Origin: Marilutibacter aestuarii
GTDB taxonomy: Bacteria; Pseudomonadota; Gammaproteobacteria; Xanthomonadales; Xanthomonadaceae
Reading direction: 5' to 3'
NCBI RefSeq assembly: GCF_006546775.1
Contig: NZ_VICE01000066.1
Span: 1-64,000, forward strand
Length of the DNA stretch: 64,000 bases
The notes below the pieces were generated by a model, which was not told the origin of the DNA, did not search any database, and was given only the letters and a program-made list of their open reading frames with translations. Below, piece after piece: positions 1-6,909 of this stretch (its first letter is position 1; each line of letters starts with the position of its first letter). A program made the translations under genes and the position numbers.

Positions 1-296
1 GCAGCGCCACCGGCGGCAACGCCGGCAACGTCGCCTCCACTGCCGGTGACGGCGGTGACGGCGGTGACGGCATGGGCGGCGACGGCATGGGCGGAGCGGG
101 CTCCGGCGGCGCGGGCGCGTCGGGCGGTGCCGGCGGCTCGGTCGGCAACAGCGCCGGTACGTTCAATGCGTCGAACTACATGACGAGCGTGGGCCAGAAC
201 GCGGCAGGCATCACGATCGCGGCGCAGAGCAGCGGCCATGCCTCGCTGATCCAGCAGGGCATCACCGTGCAGGCGAACCTCACGGTCGGCCCGTAA
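1..296 (+). CDS. Glycine-rich Fap-like amyloid subunit/adhesin, 3' part only
   Basis: The open frame enters from the left edge (first full codon at base 3) and ends with TAA at 294-296, so the N-terminus and any signal peptide are missing. The visible 97 residues begin with a Gly/Ala/Ser/Asp-rich low-complexity stretch and end in a polar region carrying QSSGHASLIQQG. The next gene carries the related QNSGSNVLIQSG. Position in front of a C39 peptidase and a FapF-like barrel suggests a secreted fibre subunit in the place of FapB/FapC; that role is inferred from context and composition, not from a recognised domain. Any in-frame ATG inside (such as 72) is internal to the protein. Confidence 0.6.
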   Translation, partial: SATGGNAGNVASTAGDGGDGGDGMGGDGMGGAGSGGAGASGGAGGSVGNSAGTFNASNYMTSVGQNAAGITIAAQSSGHASLIQQGITVQANLTVGP

Positions 297-423: not shown

Positions 424-837
424 ATGCAGATGTTCGCACCCAATCCAATCCAACTGGCAGTGCTGGTACTGGCCGCGGCCCTGGCATGGACCGGCAGCGC
501 CCATTCGGCGCCCCCGCCGGCAATCGTCGTCGCGGCCGGTGACGCCAACGCCAACGCGTCGACGCCCCCTGCGACCGGTACCGATGCCTGGCGCGCCCTT
601 GACCCGGCCGCGCTGGATCGGCTGCGCGGCGGCGACGGCGCCGAAAGCAACGTCGTGATCGACGGACTCGTCGACGGCAATACCGCCGACCATGTCATCA
701 CCGGCGACAACCTGCTCGACGGTGGCGCCTTCGGCCATGCCAGTGGCATCAACACCGTCATCCAGAACAGTGGCAGCAACGTCCTGATCCAGTCGGGAAC
801 CGCAGTCAGCGTGCAGTTCTCGAGCCCCACGCCATGA
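424..837 (+). CDS. Small secreted Fap-like subunit with double-glycine motif
   Basis: This 137-residue protein starts at an ATG with a good ribosome-binding site (GAGGAG at 416-421). It has an N-terminal signal peptide (hydrophobic about 11-25, likely cut after AHSA). After a short linker comes AALDRLRGG (62-70), which resembles the leader consensus cut by C39 peptidases, then a polar Asn/Gly/Asp-rich mature part with INTVIQNSGSNVLIQSG (109-124). That motif matches the end of the preceding glycine-rich protein. The gene overlaps the C39 peptidase gene by 4 bases (ATGA). A minor fibre subunit or nucleator comparable to FapB is the best guess; no database family is recognised with certainty. 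Confidence 0.6.
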   Translation: MQMFAPNPIQLAVLVLAAALAWTGSAHSAPPPAIVVAAGDANANASTPPATGTDAWRALDPAALDRLRGGDGAESNVVIDGLVDGNTADHVITGDNLLDGGAFGHASGINTVIQNSGSNVLIQSGTAVSVQFSSPTP

Positions 838-1529
838 CGCGTGGTTGGCTCGCCCGCTACGCACTGCTGGCGCTGCTGGGCGGCGCCAGTGGCCTTGCCG
901 TGGCCTCGAACACCGAGGTCCGCGTGCCCGGCGCGGGCGCCTACATGCTGCGCGTGACCAGTCTCAAGGAAGCGCGTTTCAAGACCACCGTGCCGCAGCA
1001 GTTCGACTTCAGCTGCGGCTCCGCGGCGACTGCGACCCTGCTCACGTACCAGTATGGGCACCCCGTTTCGGAAGAAGACGTGTTCGTGCGCATGTATACG
1101 CATGGCGACCAGAAGAAGATCCAGGCCGAAGGCTTTTCTCTGCTCGACATGCGCCGCTACCTGGCGACGATGGGCTACGAGGCTGACGGTTTCGAACTCC
1201 CGCTCGAGAAGCTCGAGGAGGAGGGCATCCCCGCCATCGTGCTGTTGAACGACCGCGGCTACCGGCATTTCGTCGTGGTCAAGGGGCTGCGCAACGGCCG
1301 CGTGCTGTTGGGCGACCCCGCGCGCGGCACGCGGGCGATGCCGCGTTCGCGCTTCGAGGCACTCTGGGACAACCGTGTGTTGTTCGTCGTGCACAGCCAC
1401 CGTTCGCTGGCGCGCTTCAACCAGGTCGCGGACTGGCGGACGGCGCCGCCCGCGCCACTGGCCACCGGCGTGCAGCGCGATGGCCTGCGCAACGTGACCG
1501 TGCCGCGGCGCGGTCCCGGGGACATCTAG
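834..1529 (+). CDS. FapD-like periplasmic C39 family peptidase
   Basis: The protein has 231 residues with a signal peptide (hydrophobic about 9-24, AVAS) followed by a papain-like C39 fold. Likely catalytic residues are Cys61 in FDFSCGSAATATLL, His145 in GYRHFVVVKG and Asp161 in LLGDPARG, giving a complete C-H-D set. There is no ABC-transporter part, unlike bacteriocin exporters; a stand-alone secreted C39 domain is the layout of FapD in the Pseudomonas Fap amyloid system. It overlaps the upstream subunit gene by ATGA and precedes the FapE-position and FapF-like genes, the same D-E-F order. The substrate is unproven, but two neighbours carry double-glycine motifs. Confidence 0.8.
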   Translation: MTRGWLARYALLALLGGASGLAVASNTEVRVPGAGAYMLRVTSLKEARFKTTVPQQFDFSCGSAATATLLTYQYGHPVSEEDVFVRMYTHGDQKKIQAEGFSLLDMRRYLATMGYEADGFELPLEKLEEEGIPAIVLLNDRGYRHFVVVKGLRNGRVLLGDPARGTRAMPRSRFEALWDNRVLFVVHSHRSLARFNQVADWRTAPPAPLATGVQRDGLRNVTVPRRGPGDI

Positions 1530-1532
1530 ACC

Positions 1533-2039
1533 ATGCGCGCATCCGCACACCTCGCCATCGTGGCCGGCGGCCTGCTGGCCCTCCTGAATGCCGCATCGGT
1601 GCAAGGCGCGCCGCCCGCGCCCAATGGCCTGGGAGCGGAATGGGCGCCGATCGGGATCGAACGGCTCGCGGACATACGTGGCGGCTTCCAGTTGCCGGGC
1701 GGGCCCGTACTGTCGTTCGGCATCGAGCGCGTGGTACGGGTCAACGGGACGCTGGTCGCACAGGCGAGCGTGCGCATTCCCGACATCGCCAACATTACCG
1801 TCGAACAGGCGCAGGCATTGGCCGAGTTCAACCGCGGCCTCCTGGTCCAGGTGGGCGAGGGCAACCGCGTCGTCGCGGGCACGGCGACCGGCGCGCTGGT
1901 CGTCCAGAACTCCCTGGACGACCAGCGCATCAATGCCATGACGCGCCTGGAGGTCGGCGTCGACACGCTGGGCATGTTCAAGTCGATCAACTTCCACGAT
2001 GCCCTCGTCGACGCGCAACTGGGTGCGCTGGGACGCTGA
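1533..2039 (+). CDS. Secreted protein in the FapE position, with double-glycine motif
   Basis: This 168-residue protein has a signal peptide (about 7-26, ending VQGA) and then IERLADIRGG (42-51), again resembling a C39 leader cleavage site. The rest is rich in Val, Asn and Gln (for example GALVVQNSLDDQRIN, 120-134) and suggests beta structure. It starts three bases after the C39 peptidase stop, so the two are probably co-translated. Its place between the FapD-like and FapF-like genes matches fapE, which is an extracellular minor component in Pseudomonas. Direct sequence similarity to FapE cannot be judged here. Confidence 0.6.
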   Translation: MRASAHLAIVAGGLLALLNAASVQGAPPAPNGLGAEWAPIGIERLADIRGGFQLPGGPVLSFGIERVVRVNGTLVAQASVRIPDIANITVEQAQALAEFNRGLLVQVGEGNRVVAGTATGALVVQNSLDDQRINAMTRLEVGVDTLGMFKSINFHDALVDAQLGALGR

Positions 2040-2071: not shown

Positions 2072-3409
2072 ATGAAAGGCAGATCGCACTCAACCCTCCA
2101 CCCCCTCGCCACGGCGGTCGCCTGCTTGCTCCTGCCGGCCGTCCCGGGCATGGCGTGGGCGCAGCAGGCCGCGGACGGCGAGGCCCGCCTGCAGGCCCTG
2201 CAGGCGCAGATCAACGACGAGCGACGGGCGCTGAACGACATGCGCGCGGCCCTGCAACATCGCCAGCAGAACCTCGATGCGCTGCAGCGCGCACTGGACG
2301 ACGAGATCCTGGGCAACGCGCGCGGTCGCGGTGGCGCCGCGATCGCGGCGACCGGCGCCTTCGACCTCCGGGCGCAGGGCGGCACGCAGGCCACCGAGCC
2401 GTTGGCGTCCACGCAACCCCAACCCGTCGGCCAGGCCCCCGAGGCCGATACGCGGCCACCGGAAGTGGCGCAGATCTTCGACCAGCCCGGCGTGCTTACC
2501 CCGGCGCGCAGCTTCATCCTGGAACCCTCGGTGCAGTACGGCTACTACGCCAACGATCGCGTCGCCTTGGTCGGGTACACGGTGATCCCGGCGATCCTGA
2601 TCGGCCTGATCGACGTGCGCCAGGTCAAGACCACGACGACCGTCGCCACGCTCACCGGTCGCTACGGCATCACCAACCGCATGGAGATCGAGGCCAAGGT
2701 GCCTTACGTCTACGCGCACAGCGACACGGTCAGCCGCGAGATCTTCACCGGATCGGCCCAGGACAACGTGTTCAACGCGCAGGGCAAGGGCATGGGCGAC
2801 ATCGAGGCGACCCTGCGTTACCAGATCAACCAGGGCGCCGCCGACAAGCCGTTCTACATCGGCTGGCTTCGCTACAAGAGCCGCACCGGGCGCGACCCGT
2901 TCGAGGTCATCACCGACTGCGTGACCCGCTGCGTCGCCAACGCGACGGGCACCGGCCTGCCGCTGGACCTGCCCACCGGCAGCGGCTTCGAGGCGATCCA
3001 GCCCGGCGTCACCTGGCTGTTCCCGTCGGATCCGGTGGTGTTCTTCGGCACCCTGAGCTACCTGCACAACTTCAAGCGGGACAATGTCTCGCGCACCGTG
3101 CTGGGCGGGCAGACCGAGTTCCTGGGCGAGATCGACGCGGGCGACATCATCGGCCTCAACCTCGGCATGGGCCTGGCGCTCAATGAAAAGGCGTCCATCA
3201 GCATCGGCTACGACCACAACGTCGTCGACCGCACCCAGCAGAACGGGGAGGACCTGCCGGGCTCGGTGCGCCTCAATCTCGGGACGCTGCTGCTGGGCGG
3301 GACCTACCGCTACAACGAGCACGTCTCGCTGAACGTCGTCGTCGGCGCTGGCCTCACCCGCGACACGCCCGACCTCAGCCTGACCGCGCGCATCCCGATC
3401 ACGTTCTGA
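2072..3409 (+). CDS. FapF-like outer-membrane amyloid exporter
   Basis: The 445-residue protein is started at ATG 2072, where a signal peptide (MKGRSHSTLHPLATAVACLL, cut near AWA) begins and GGGAG lies just upstream. Residues about 37-84 are a Leu/Gln/Arg-rich coiled coil, followed by a linker. From about 140 onward alternating aromatic and polar strands run to a terminal Phe (RIPITF), typical of an outer-membrane beta-barrel. A coiled-coil plug before a barrel of this size is the architecture of FapF, the trimeric exporter of Fap fibrils. It is the last gene of the locus and converges with ligD. The barrel assignment is firm; the exported substrate is inferred from neighbours. Confidence 0.75.
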   Translation: MKGRSHSTLHPLATAVACLLLPAVPGMAWAQQAADGEARLQALQAQINDERRALNDMRAALQHRQQNLDALQRALDDEILGNARGRGGAAIAATGAFDLRAQGGTQATEPLASTQPQPVGQAPEADTRPPEVAQIFDQPGVLTPARSFILEPSVQYGYYANDRVALVGYTVIPAILIGLIDVRQVKTTTTVATLTGRYGITNRMEIEAKVPYVYAHSDTVSREIFTGSAQDNVFNAQGKGMGDIEATLRYQINQGAADKPFYIGWLRYKSRTGRDPFEVITDCVTRCVANATGTGLPLDLPTGSGFEAIQPGVTWLFPSDPVVFFGTLSYLHNFKRDNVSRTVLGGQTEFLGEIDAGDIIGLNLGMGLALNEKASISIGYDHNVVDRTQQNGEDLPGSVRLNLGTLLLGGTYRYNEHVSLNVVVGAGLTRDTPDLSLTARIPITF

Positions 3410-3468: not shown

Positions 3469-5925
3469 CTACACGCCGAAGTCGGGCAGGGCCTGGTCGA
3501 CGCGACCGATGCCGGCCCAGGGATCGTCCTTGAGCCGGGCCGCGCGTCGCCGTGCCCCGTCCAGATCGTAGGCGCCGGGGCCTGCCACGCGCCCGAGTTC
3601 CTCCCAGCGCAACGGCACGGCGACCGGTGCCCCGGGTCGCGCGCGCAGCGACCACGAGGCAACGCTCGTCGCGCCGCGCGCATTGCGCAACCAGTCGATG
3701 AAGATGCGCCCCTTGCGTTTGGCCTTGGCCATGCTGGCCAGGTAGCGATCCGGGGCTTGCGTGGCCATGGCGACCGCAAAGCCCTCGCAGAACGCACGCG
3801 CCTGGTTCCAGTCGACGCCCGGGCGCATCGGCACCACGACATGCAGGCCCTTGCCGCCGGACAGGCGCACGAAGCTCTCCAGGCCGATCTCGCCGAGCCT
3901 GTCCCGGACCTCGCGGGCCGCGGCGACGACGCTCTTCCAGGCCACGCCATCGCCCGGGTCGAGGTCGAAGACCAGCCGGTCGGGTGTTTCCGGGGAATCC
4001 GTGGTCGCGCCCCAGGGATGCAGTTCCAGGGTATTCATCTGGACGAGTTCCAGCACCCCTTCGATGCCATCGACGTACAGGTAGTCCTCGCGGCCGCTCT
4101 TCTGTTCCAGGGCGATGGCATGCACGTGCGGCCCCAGGCTGTCGGCATGATGCTTCTGGAAGAAGCAGGGCGACTGGCTTCCGTCCGGGCAGCGGAGCAG
4201 GGACAGCGGTCGCCGCACCAGTTCCGGCAGCAGGTAATCGGCCACGGCGCGGTAGTAGTCGGCCACGTCCTGCTTGGTATACGGGCTGTCGGCGAACATG
4301 CGCCTGTCCGGATGCGTGATCGGCATGTGGCCTCCTTCGGACCGTTGCGGGGCAGGGGAGGAACGCGTTCCGCCCAGGTCCCCGACCGCCTTGTCGTGGC
4401 GGACCCGCTGGAAGCTGGACTGGCGCAACAAGCCTTCCTTGCCCAGACCGCGATACGCCAGTTGCACCACCACTTCAGGCTTTACCCAGGTCACGCTGGA
4501 GCGGGAGAAGGGCGCGTGGGCCGGAAGCTCGACGGGCGCGGTGCTCTGTTCCAGCGCAATGAGTCTTTCGTGCAGGGCGGCGAGCGTGCGTTCGTCGAAG
4601 CCGGTACCGACACGGCCCATGTACCGCCAGGAGGTACCGTCGGGAGAAGCCACCAGCAGCGAACCGAAGCCCCACCTCGCGCCCTTGGGTTCGGTGAATC
4701 CCACGACGGCGAATTCGTCGGTCGTGGCGTGCTTGGACTTGACCCAGTCGCCGCTGCGTCCGGAGCGGTATGCACTGTCCACGCGCTTGCTCACGACGCC
4801 CTCGATCCCGGCCTTGGCGGTCTCCTCGAACATCTTCGCGCCGTGGCCGACGATGTGGTCGCTGTACGCCACCACGCCCGGTGTCTCGCCCACCAGCGCC
4901 TGTAGCAGGCGCTTGCGTTCGACCAGCGGCGAGTCTCGCAAGTCGACCCCGGCCAGGCCGGGCAAGTCAAACACCAGGTAGCGGAGGCGCGCGCGCGACG
5001 TGCCTTCCAGTACCCGCTGGAGTTCGGCGAAGTCACTCCTGCCATCCGCCTCGAGGACCACGAGCTCGCCATCCAGGCAGGCCTCCGTCACAGGCAGCGC
5101 TTCGACGGCGCGGGTCACCTCCGGCAGGGCATCGGTCCAGTCCAGGCCATTGCGCGAGCGCAGCACGGCCTTGCCCTGGAAGAGATCGGCGAGCACGCGG
5201 TAGCCGTCCCACTTGATCTCGTGCAACCAGTGTTCCCCGGCCGGCGGCGCGTCCCGAGGCGTCGCCAACACGGGCTCGAATCCCATCGGCAAGCCTTTGG
5301 CGCGCGCGCCCTCGAGGTCGGCGGCCTTGCGCTTCCAGCGGCCTCCGTGGGCGCTGGCCTTCGTCGAAGTGCGTCGCCTGGATGGTGCGCGGGCGTGGCG
5401 CGGATTGGGCTTCGCTTCGTCGCCAAGCAGGTCGTCTGCATCCTGATCCGAGGCGTGCGCGTCGTCGCGCTTGATCAACAGCCATTGCCGCTGCTTGCCT
5501 TGCATCCCGGTCCTGACGAGCTTCCAGCCCCCGGAAAGCTTCTCGCCGGCGAGGGTGAAATCCAGTTTCCCCCGGGCGAGGGCGGGCAGGGGATCGCCTT
5601 CCATGGCCCAGTGGCCGTGATCGAACACATCGACATGGCCGGCGCCGTAGTGGCCCTCGGGGATATCGCCTTCGAACCCGGCGTAGTCGAGCGGATGGTC
5701 TTCCACCTCGACGGCCAGCCGCTTCTCGCCGGCCCGGAGGGAGGGCCCCTTGGGTACGGCCCAGCTCTTGAGGACGCCATCCATCTCCAGCCGGAAGTCG
5801 TAATGCCGGCTGCTGGCATGGTGGAGCTGGACCACGAAGACCGGGCGATGGCCGCGACTGACGACACCCGCCAGTGGTTCGGGCGTGCCCGGGCGTCGCT
5901 TTCGCGAGTATTCGTGCAGCGCCAC
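3469..5925 (-). CDS. ligD: ATP-dependent DNA ligase D (end-joining ligase/polymerase)
   Basis: LigD repairs double-strand breaks with Ku by processing, filling and sealing ends. The 818 residues show the three-domain order phosphoesterase-ligase-polymerase. The phosphoesterase has HHASSRHYDFRLEMDG at 35-50. The ligase nucleotidyl-acceptor Lys238 lies in EIKWDGYR. The primase-like polymerase has DLDPGDG (Asp654 and Asp656) and LSGGKGLHVVVP at 688-699. Length and order match Pseudomonas LigD. It is immediately downstream of ku (3-base gap), so the two form one transcription unit. Confidence 0.97.
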   Translation of the reverse strand: MALHEYSRKRRPGTPEPLAGVVSRGHRPVFVVQLHHASSRHYDFRLEMDGVLKSWAVPKGPSLRAGEKRLAVEVEDHPLDYAGFEGDIPEGHYGAGHVDVFDHGHWAMEGDPLPALARGKLDFTLAGEKLSGGWKLVRTGMQGKQRQWLLIKRDDAHASDQDADDLLGDEAKPNPRHARAPSRRRTSTKASAHGGRWKRKAADLEGARAKGLPMGFEPVLATPRDAPPAGEHWLHEIKWDGYRVLADLFQGKAVLRSRNGLDWTDALPEVTRAVEALPVTEACLDGELVVLEADGRSDFAELQRVLEGTSRARLRYLVFDLPGLAGVDLRDSPLVERKRLLQALVGETPGVVAYSDHIVGHGAKMFEETAKAGIEGVVSKRVDSAYRSGRSGDWVKSKHATTDEFAVVGFTEPKGARWGFGSLLVASPDGTSWRYMGRVGTGFDERTLAALHERLIALEQSTAPVELPAHAPFSRSSVTWVKPEVVVQLAYRGLGKEGLLRQSSFQRVRHDKAVGDLGGTRSSPAPQRSEGGHMPITHPDRRMFADSPYTKQDVADYYRAVADYLLPELVRRPLSLLRCPDGSQSPCFFQKHHADSLGPHVHAIALEQKSGREDYLYVDGIEGVLELVQMNTLELHPWGATTDSPETPDRLVFDLDPGDGVAWKSVVAAAREVRDRLGEIGLESFVRLSGGKGLHVVVPMRPGVDWNQARAFCEGFAVAMATQAPDRYLASMAKAKRKGRIFIDWLRNARGATSVASWSLRARPGAPVAVPLRWEELGRVAGPGAYDLDGARRRAARLKDDPWAGIGRVDQALPDFGV

Positions 5926-5928
5926 CGG

Positions 5929-6909
5929 TCACCCGGCCTTGCGGGTGTCCTTCGCGGACGACGCGGAGGCCTTGCCCGCCTTCTTGCGCGTCGACTTCGA
6001 CCTGCTCTTTTTCGCAGCAGGCTTCTTCTTGGCTGCCGACTTCTTCGGAGCGGGTTCCGACTTCCTGGAGGCGGCCTTCTTCGCGGCGGCCTTCTTCGCG
6101 GGCGTGCGCTTCTGGCTGTCGATGCTCTTCTTGAGCAGGGCCATGAAGTCGACGACATTGGTCGTCGCGTCCTCGTCCAGCTCGTGCTCGGATTCCTCGA
6201 TTTTCGCCTTGGCGCCCTTGGACTTCATCTTCCTGCGGATGACGTCCTGCAATTGCTCCCGGAACTCGTCGTGGTAGTCGTCCGGCGCCCACTTGCCCGA
6301 CATGGACTTGATCAGCTGGCGTGCCATGTCGAATTCCTTGTCGCTGATCCGGTACTCGCCCGTCTTGCCGGCAGGCAGCCGATAGTCCGCCGGATCGACC
6401 AGCTCCTGCGGATACCGCAGCAGCAGCAAAAGCAAGGCATCGCCCTGTGGCACCACCGCGCACAGGTACCCACGGGTGCGGATGACGACCCGGGCGACCC
6501 CCACCTGGCCGGTTTCCTTCAGCGTCTCGCGCAGCAGTACGTAGCCTTTCTCGGCCTTCTTCGCGGGCACCAGCACATAGGGCTTCTCGAAGTACTGCAG
6601 CGGGATGTCGCCGGCATCGACGAAGGCCTCGACCTCGACCGTTTCGTGGCTGTCGGGCGCTGCGGAGGCGATGTCCTCCTTCTCGATCACCACGTAACTG
6701 CCCTTGTCGTACTCGAAGGCCTTGACGATGTCCTTCCAGGGCACTTCCTCGCCGGTTTCGGCATTCACTCGCTCGTACCGGATCGGCGTCTTGCTGCGGG
6801 CATCGAGCATGCGGAACTGCAGGTCGGTTCGCCGCTCGCCCGACATCAGCGAAACAGGGATGTTGAGCAGACCGAAGGACAGGGTCCCGGTCCAGATCGG
6901 GCGCGCCAT
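5929..6909 (-). CDS. ku: Ku family DNA end-binding protein
   Basis: This 326-residue protein starts MARPIWTGTLSFGLLNIPV, the usual bacterial Ku opening. The Ku core covers about residues 1-255. The tail from about 268 is Lys/Ala-rich (PAKKAAAKKAASRK and more), an extension common in longer bacterial Ku proteins and thought to add DNA contacts. It forms a homodimer ring that threads onto broken ends and recruits LigD, encoded directly downstream. About 110 bases separate it from the next lipoprotein gene. Confidence 0.96.
   Translation of the reverse strand: MARPIWTGTLSFGLLNIPVSLMSGERRTDLQFRMLDARSKTPIRYERVNAETGEEVPWKDIVKAFEYDKGSYVVIEKEDIASAAPDSHETVEVEAFVDAGDIPLQYFEKPYVLVPAKKAEKGYVLLRETLKETGQVGVARVVIRTRGYLCAVVPQGDALLLLLLRYPQELVDPADYRLPAGKTGEYRISDKEFDMARQLIKSMSGKWAPDDYHDEFREQLQDVIRRKMKSKGAKAKIEESEHELDEDATTNVVDFMALLKKSIDSQKRTPAKKAAAKKAASRKSEPAPKKSAAKKKPAAKKSRSKSTRKKAGKASASSAKDTRKAG

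Follow-up and report, generated by a model that had tools for sequence, protein, structure and literature searches.

The closest described relative of the locus analyzed here is the Fap system of Pseudomonas, in which, according to the excerpts of a 2017 paper drawn on here (PMC5557850), the catalytic Cys of the peptidase FapD as well as FapE are required for secretion, the N-terminus of FapE is absent from mass spectra, and the target of FapD is stated to be unclear. FapE was suspected as this target in the same paper and in a 2018 review (PMC6173800), and FapF was proposed in the 2017 paper as a further one, at about the place of a site-like block described below. The 2018 review, as excerpted, calls the FapD substrate yet to be determined and reports fapD-fapF pairs in five more phyla, while excerpts of a 2025 review (PMC12822426) state that FapD is thought to process FapE and FapF. 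The excerpts of PMC3792158, PMC3684753, PMC12392863, and PMC11787515 give no site.

For the C39 domains of ABC transporters (LahT, PCAT1, and ComA), structures and mutations show that leader positions -4, -7, and -12 as well as the double Gly matter (sections of PMC6959990 and PMC6363468). The same sections give the consensus of the eLife 2020 paper on PCAT1, L(-12)xxxE(-8)L(-7)xxxxG(-2)G(-1), in which residues -10 to -4 are helical, -7 and -12 form a hydrophobic knot, and specificity resides at -4, and they report that Glu -8 was dispensable in the mutagenesis of LahT. A third system, the Acinetobacter-type Fil system (FilA, FilB, and FilC), is of distant relation only.

Here, we analyzed a stretch of 64,000 nucleotides from Marilutibacter aestuarii (the window), which starts at the first base of its contig and carries, according to the list of open reading frames (ORFs), a five-gene operon entirely on the + strand (Table 1). 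The initial annotation had proposed that a FapD-like C39 peptidase trims a pro-segment from both proteins flanking it, a role that it described as not established for FapD. As a proposal, this role is not wholly new, since FapE and FapF had already been suspected as targets (PMC5557850 and PMC6173800, in excerpts), and with the 168-aa protein being the FapE-position protein, half of it amounts to a refinement of that earlier suspicion. What appears to be new is the 137-aa protein in the role of a second substrate: in the literature searched, whose scope excluded subscription papers and bioRxiv, we found no report of the site, a second substrate, or the co-variation described below.

Materials and methods

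Near loci were taken from a scan of named genomes (22 loci, 21 of which belong to Lysobacter, Pseudoxanthomonas, or a related metagenome bin), and the loci of three further relatives were added, resulting in 25 near loci including the window. Of 369 genomes of the class searched for FapD, 45 contained matches; 52 of 57 places were fetched, with the window among the 5 unfetched ones. From these 52 class loci, 28 (L070-L097) entered the main set, and 22 (L100-L121) were set apart as distant. Loci were dropped if they repeated others (L098 repeats L036, L128 repeats L028) or had a broken reading frame (L099). The Pseudomonas-type set was assembled by searching, at family level, the surroundings of a genome in which PrrF RNA, a Pseudomonas-specific marker, is strong, so that we take this set to represent the family of Pseudomonas; 19 of 79 genomes contributed a total of 20 FapD genes, all above the FapD cut-off. 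The main set of 77 loci (25 near, 13 middle relatives of the window, 19 other Fap-type, and 20 Pseudomonas-type) was fixed after the first motif scan. A second sample of 32 loci, drawn from the phylum, was split after inspection into 25 hold-out loci (L172-L196) and 7 Fil-type loci (L197-L203). Left out were L039 (unrelated), L013 and L014 (weak matches), L130 and L131 (RNA matches), as well as short versions of places covered otherwise (L001-L012, L015-L017, L040-L069, and L152-L171; L124 replaced L009).

Positions are counted backward from the predicted cut, with -1 as the last residue removed. The strict FapE pattern was written after the first examples and requires Gly at -2. For the published leader consensus, L or M was allowed for L and E, D, or Q for E, with Gly at -2. 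Profile-profile comparisons were performed with hhalign. The charge pair -8/121 was noticed in the first 77 loci, and 24 later pairs served as hold-out; the tree used for the co-variation was built without column 121.

Results

The peptidase scored 75.2 bits against the C39 profile PF03412 (cut-off 22) and matched a solved C39 structure (6mpz) with an E value of 8.2e-9. Its catalytic residues Gln55, Cys61, His145, and Asp161 are invariant in 77/77 main-set loci. A signal peptide was judged by eye, and the enzyme is therefore presumably periplasmic. The best NCBIfam model is FapD (NF058616), with FilB second (E 2.1e-35); the FapD score of 141.3 bits lies below the cut-off of 330, and likewise the pore scored 151.5 bits against FapF (NF058560, cut-off 700), so that neither is assigned to Fap by these models. 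The FapE model (NF058559) did not match the 168-aa protein of the window at E values up to 1, nor its L018 homologue at values up to 10; a control FapE, one downstream protein of the Pseudomonas-type set, scored 346 bits (cut-off 250) and carries the site described below.

Table 1. Features of the Fap-like operon, in positions of the window.
Feature	Position	Strand	Basis or remark
Gly-rich exported protein, 3' end, candidate main fibre subunit	3..296	+	open ORF, cut by contig start
137-aa exported protein, candidate second FapD substrate	424..837	+	syntenic homologue in 25/25 near loci
C39 recognition site of 137-aa protein, residues 59-70, LDPAALDRLRGG	598..633	+	predicted cut after 633
FapD-like C39 peptidase, 231 aa	834..1529	+	PF03412 E 5.7e-21; NCBIfam FapD E 2.6e-41
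Catalytic Cys61 codon of peptidase	1014..1016	+	invariant column
Other peptidase codons	Gln55 996-998; His145 1266-1268; Asp161 1314-1316	+	invariant columns
Glu121 codon, peptidase residue co-varying in charge with site -8	1194..1196	+	charge co-variation
168-aa exported protein, FapE position, candidate first FapD substrate	1533..2039	+	gene order
C39 recognition site of 168-aa protein, residues 40-51, IGIERLADIRGG	1650..1685	+	predicted cut after 1685
FapF-like outer-membrane protein, 445 aa	2072..3409	+	NCBIfam FapF E 2.9e-44
Weaker site-like block in FapF-like protein, residues 75-86, LDDEILGNARGR	2294..2329	+	possible third target

With Pseudomonas Fap, the operon shares the order of peptidase, FapE-position protein, and FapF-like pore, the top NCBIfam models FapD and FapF, and the register of the FapE site. 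However, its peptidase and pore score far under the Fap cut-offs, its sites end in GG whereas the Fap FapE site ends in G[RK], it encodes an additional site-bearing protein of 137 aa, and, with regard to FapB/FapC repeat subunits, two homologues of its Gly-rich upstream protein gave no match in general scans of Pfam and NCBIfam. Moreover, the peptidases belong to a sister clade, since in the peptidase tree the 38 loci with RGG and the 39 loci with [RT]G[RK] form two sister clades (support 99/97 and 99/95, respectively). In a later tree, the 102 peptidases counted here form one clade to the exclusion of 29 distant and Fil-type ones (support 0.999). Taken jointly with the functional explanation given in the Discussion, the operon probably represents a Fap-like amyloid secretion system of a lineage sister to Fap.

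When the near and middle relatives were compared with Fap-type FapE at the profile level, the probability was 91% for the site together with the 31 columns after it, and the near loci alone reached 58% against the Pseudomonas-type FapE profile over the same extent. Without the site, these values fell to 10% and 1.4%, respectively, and homology of the mature part by itself is not significant. The 168-aa protein is likely descended from FapE. Predicted structures of the peptidase and the 168-aa protein, based on 21-row alignments, were too poor for use (mean pLDDT 45.6 and 48.8).

Regarding the layout of the locus, the 3' end of the 137-aa ORF overlaps the start of the peptidase, the 168-aa gene follows the peptidase and precedes the FapF-like gene in the near loci, and 21 near loci have the same gene order as the window. 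Relatives encode longer homologues of the Gly-rich protein at the corresponding place, with lengths of 366 to 508 aa in the first eight loci inspected, and neither an RGG-type nor a GG-type C39 site was found in 20/20 homologues scanned over their length. For the 137-aa and 168-aa proteins, there was no match in Pfam or PHROGs and no relevant one in NCBIfam. The C-termini of the three exported proteins look alike, with a VIQNSGSNVLIQ-type stretch that may serve as a pore-targeting or assembly signal. The 137-aa proteins have in common a C-terminal NxGxNVxIQ-like stretch, to which, as judged by eye, the end of the Gly-rich protein is similar as well. Beyond the operon, a long ORF and an adjoining one on the - strand (3469-6909) resemble, by eye, a LigD/Ku end-joining pair.

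The translated ORFs bear out what the initial annotation had read from the sequence: AALDRLRGG at residues 62-70 of the 137-aa protein and IERLADIRGG at residues 42-51 of the 168-aa protein, in two ORFs on either side of the peptidase (Table 1), each behind a signal peptide. By eye, these signal peptides end at about residues 28 and 25, respectively, which places GG approximately 41 residues past that end in the 137-aa protein and approximately 25 residues past it in the 168-aa protein. Both sites have the same register, with a hydrophobic residue at -12, Leu at -7, Leu, Met, or Ile at -4, Arg at -3, and Gly-Gly at -2/-1. The motif by itself is weak evidence: on the DNA level, the pattern L..[hydrophobic]RGG matched 6 times in the window, with 1.84 matches expected, and 6 matches were reached in 1 of 100 shuffles. 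Among background signal-peptide-like ORFs, a generic -12/-7/-4/GG site occurred in 9/596 and the RGG form in 0/596.

The conservation of GG and its preceding residues, which the initial annotation had named as the check to be made, was then decisive for us, as we judged the site to be real because it is conserved in both proteins of all 25 homologous loci. Both proteins have Leu -7 and RGG without exception, within the pattern L-x-x-[LIM]-R-G-G that is preceded by a hydrophobic residue five places ahead of Leu (25/25). In the 137-aa family of the near loci, -7, -3, -2, and -1 are the sole invariant columns among the 65 from -40 to +25, followed in constancy by -4, which is either Leu or Met, and -12, where Val, Leu, and Ile occur. 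The remainder of the pro-segment is variable both in sequence and in length. The conserved positions correspond to the published contact positions of C39 leaders plus Arg -3. Accordingly for double-glycine leaders, hydrophobic residues at -12/-7/-4 and Gly-Gly at -2/-1 were found in both proteins of 25/25 loci; the Glu -8 of such leaders was not, with A in the 137-aa protein and R in the 168-aa protein of the window, and most near FapE-type sites carry R at -8, their -12 residue being mostly V or I. The peptidase shares with the C39 domains of ABC transporters its sequence family and these contact positions but differs from them in being stand-alone and exported, in that its putative substrates have a Sec signal peptide before the leader, and in that the five-gene operon contains no ABC transporter.

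Within the main set, the site was found in the FapE-position protein of 77/77 loci. This count holds partly by construction, because the strict pattern was post hoc and demands Gly -2, and the hold-out provides the fairer figure: 24/25 loci carry the site (15 by the strict pattern and 9 by a looser reading), with L195 as the miss. In total, 101 of the 102 loci sampled from the FapD clade have the site. For comparison, the strict pattern occurred twice in 587,588 background residues, i.e., about 0.005 times per locus searched. All 20 Pseudomonas-type FapE proteins match [EQ]-[LM]-x-x-L-R-G-[RK]-[FY], with 19 Glu and 1 Gln at -8, approximately 20 residues past the signal peptide as judged by eye. 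Applied literally (L/M at -12 and -7, E/D/Q at -8, and Gly at -2), the published consensus matched 17/20 Pseudomonas-type, 9/19 other Fap-type, and 4/13 middle sites, and 0/25 near FapE-type sites. Thus, going by these sequences, the canonical site that the 2017 paper, as excerpted, had not seen in Fap proteins (PMC5557850) does exist in FapE, with G[RK] replacing GG.

The ending of the site is RGG in the 13 middle relatives and [RT]G[RK] in the 19 other Fap-type loci; one hold-out FapE site ends in HGK. Since RGG and [RT]G[RK] split exactly along the two clades, this represents one event, and a candidate link between the -1 preference (G versus R/K) and single peptidase residues was dropped for this reason. 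In L092, an ORF downstream of the peptidase looks by eye like a fusion, in which a membrane segment and a long coiled coil precede the FapE-like domain and the RGG site sits where the membrane-anchored coiled coil meets that domain. Duplicate neighbouring fapD-fapE copies were observed at L175/L176 and L184/L185.

The variation at -1 (G, R, K, T, M, or Q) next to a near-invariant Gly -2 would also fit a cut one bond earlier, after R-G, with the following residue free to vary. We consider this unlikely, as in solved structures of C39 domains with their leaders, the distance from the -12/-7/-4 contacts puts the nucleophile after -1 (sections of PMC6959990/PMC6363468). On this spacing, the bond cut would be the one after Gly-Gly.

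Further information on how site and peptidase relate came from the charge at -8. This residue is Arg in 21/25 near FapE-type sites and mostly Glu elsewhere, and FapD 121 (window numbering) is Glu in 24/25 near loci and Arg or Lys in 43/52 others; the sole near locus with Arg121 (L124) has Glu -8. Across 101 loci, the signs at -8 and 121 are opposite in 75, both negative in 5, and both positive in 0, with an uncharged partner in 21. Among the 24 hold-out pairs, 14 are opposite, 8 have an uncharged partner, and 2 are the same (L175 and L176 from one genome, the only hold-out loci that are acidic at both positions). On the tree, the charge class changes on 16/200 branches for -8 and on 14 for 121, with 7 shared branches, and all 7 shared changes are opposite in direction, among them each of the four gains of positive charge at -8. 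With a hypergeometric P of 1.3e-5, the pair ranks 1 of 828 testable charge pairs; a branch-length-weighted control was weaker, reaching 7 shared branches in 41 of 20000 cases. By raw opposite-charge correlation, four pairs outranked (121,-8), but these are not outstanding on the tree, and (121,-8) is second of 1982 pairs when centred by group. In solved C39 domains, the place aligned with 121 is occupied by Arg (LahT) or Lys (7n87), and the consensus published for their substrates has Glu -8. Based on this co-variation, we read the FapE site as being in physical contact with FapD. The second-ranked charge pair on the tree, FapD 128 and FapE -14 (6 shared opposite changes, P 2.6e-4), is perhaps another contact.

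C-terminal comparison covered the 137-aa against the 168-aa family and gave a profile similarity of 83.5% over 30 columns, because of which the two families may be distant paralogues. The motif could then belong to the structure of the mature proteins and have nothing to do with the peptidase, its C39 likeness being due to chance or to shared descent of the two proteins. This reading is highly improbable in light of the exact register of the known C39 contacts, the -8/121 charge co-variation, and the free variation of the residues on either side of the site in the 137-aa family.

Homologues of the 137-aa protein were identified in the 25 near loci, the 13 middle relatives, and 7/13 hold-out loci scanned (n=45), with none found in the other 6/13. 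The site is in register in 44/45, with Leu or Met at -7 in 44, Arg at -3 in 41, Gly at -2 in 40, and Gly at -1 in 32; the homologue of L085 is without the site. Outside the near clade, 7/19 site-bearing homologues, whose sites were picked by eye, have the RGG ending. The signs at -8/121 are opposite in 26, the same in 2, and uncharged in 16, and, because only one change falls on a shared branch, this is agreement rather than independent proof. We regard it as likely that the 137-aa protein is a second FapD substrate in this lineage.

The FapF-like pore was at first regarded as site-free, a view that was given up after a recheck revealed a site-like block behind a predicted coiled coil. In the window and L018-L038, this block has Leu -12 and Leu -7 in 22/22, Arg -3 in 21/22, Ala or Thr at -4, and Ala or Gly at -2 with Arg at -1 in 22/22. 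Because the pore carries this block, the 137-aa and 168-aa proteins may not be the sole targets, and the pore may be a third target of FapD; the leucine pattern of a coiled coil is a simple alternative for the block. Beyond the near loci, its strict form, L....L...R[GA], is rare (1/6 middle, 1/16 other Fap-type, 0/17 Pseudomonas-type, and 4/14 hold-out candidates).

The block bears on whether FapD cuts at the site in FapE and the 137-aa protein at all, as the site could serve for docking only, with FapD acting there as a chaperone or tether and cutting something else, e.g., FapF. An analogue exists in type I secretion with its catalytically inactive C39-like domains, the -1 residue is highly variable across the 137-aa family and in Fap is R/K, which is unusual for a C39 scissile site, and besides the block conserved in 22/22 near pores, FapF has been named as a possible target (PMC5557850 and PMC12822426, in excerpts). 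Nevertheless, docking without cutting appears distinctly improbable: the catalytic residues are invariant (77/77), a Cys mutant stops secretion in Pseudomonas Fap (PMC5557850, in excerpts), the strict pore block is rare beyond the near loci, and Gly -2, needless for a pure docking helix, is retained in FapE sites (77/77, where the pattern requires it, and 24/24 in the hold-out). Recognition of FapE by FapD at the site is very probable, and cutting at the site, to which we return below, is still probable.

Among the more distant exported C39 peptidases, FilB being the second-best model for the window peptidase is one link to the Fil system, and another is a FilA-like neighbour of such a peptidase (L103) with a leader-like site right after its signal peptide. 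The FilA-like proteins of L103 and L101 matched the NCBIfam model FilA with E values of 9e-32 and 0.0018, both below the cut-off, and their leader-like sites are LNDTGLEQATGQ and MDESAMSDVSGQ, respectively. By contrast, no FapE-like site was found downstream in any of the seven Fil-type loci (L197-L203), which branch outside the FapD clade. Leader-like sites such as LSDQEMKNTEGA and LSEAEMLETQGE were also found behind the signal peptide of Sec-exported neighbours of distant exported C39 peptidases (L107, L108, L109, L111, L112, L113, L116, and L118-L121); several of these neighbours are small (79 to 132 aa). In the 22 distant loci, 12/109 neighbouring signal-peptide-like ORFs (from 11/22 loci) match the published consensus compared to 11/857 background ORFs (Fisher P 1.1e-6).

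Discussion

The proposal that the FapD-like enzyme trims the pro-segments of both flanking proteins is supported by the conservation of the site in 25/25 near loci, its C39 register, and the co-variation of -8 with 121, from which cleavage as such is inferred. Our best explanation, which we consider probable as a whole, is that the operon products would be exported by Sec and that the FapD-like peptidase would dock a short helix (approximately -11 to -4) of its two partner proteins in the periplasm. This helix would occupy the hydrophobic groove used by bacteriocin-type C39 domains, aided by a charge contact of site -8 with peptidase residue 121, and a cut after Gly-Gly would remove pro-segments of approximately 41 residues from the 137-aa protein and approximately 25 residues from the 168-aa protein. 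For FapE, the gap in mass spectrometry (PMC5557850, in excerpts) spans about 70 residues, more than the approximately 40 predicted. The trimmed proteins would then exit via the FapF-like pore, which is possibly cut too, and would initiate, anchor, or cap the fibre that the Gly-rich protein encoded upstream forms. Most likely, trimming would act as a checkpoint that licenses secretion or assembly.

By placing a canonical-register C39 site in FapE itself, our analysis offers a candidate answer to the question of what FapD cuts, and with FapE -8 and FapD 121, it provides a residue pair open to charge-reversal testing. It also adds a second candidate substrate in the sister lineage. If this is right, cutting by FapD is directly testable and could explain the need for both FapD and FapE before amyloid export. 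Beyond Fap, it seems to us an even call whether stand-alone Sec-exported C39 peptidases (FapD, FilB, and more distant relatives) form a general periplasmic maturation class, whose operons encode Sec-exported partners with a bacteriocin-type leader site. If they do, double-glycine leader processing would also take place outside ABC transporters, serving surface fibres and small secreted proteins.
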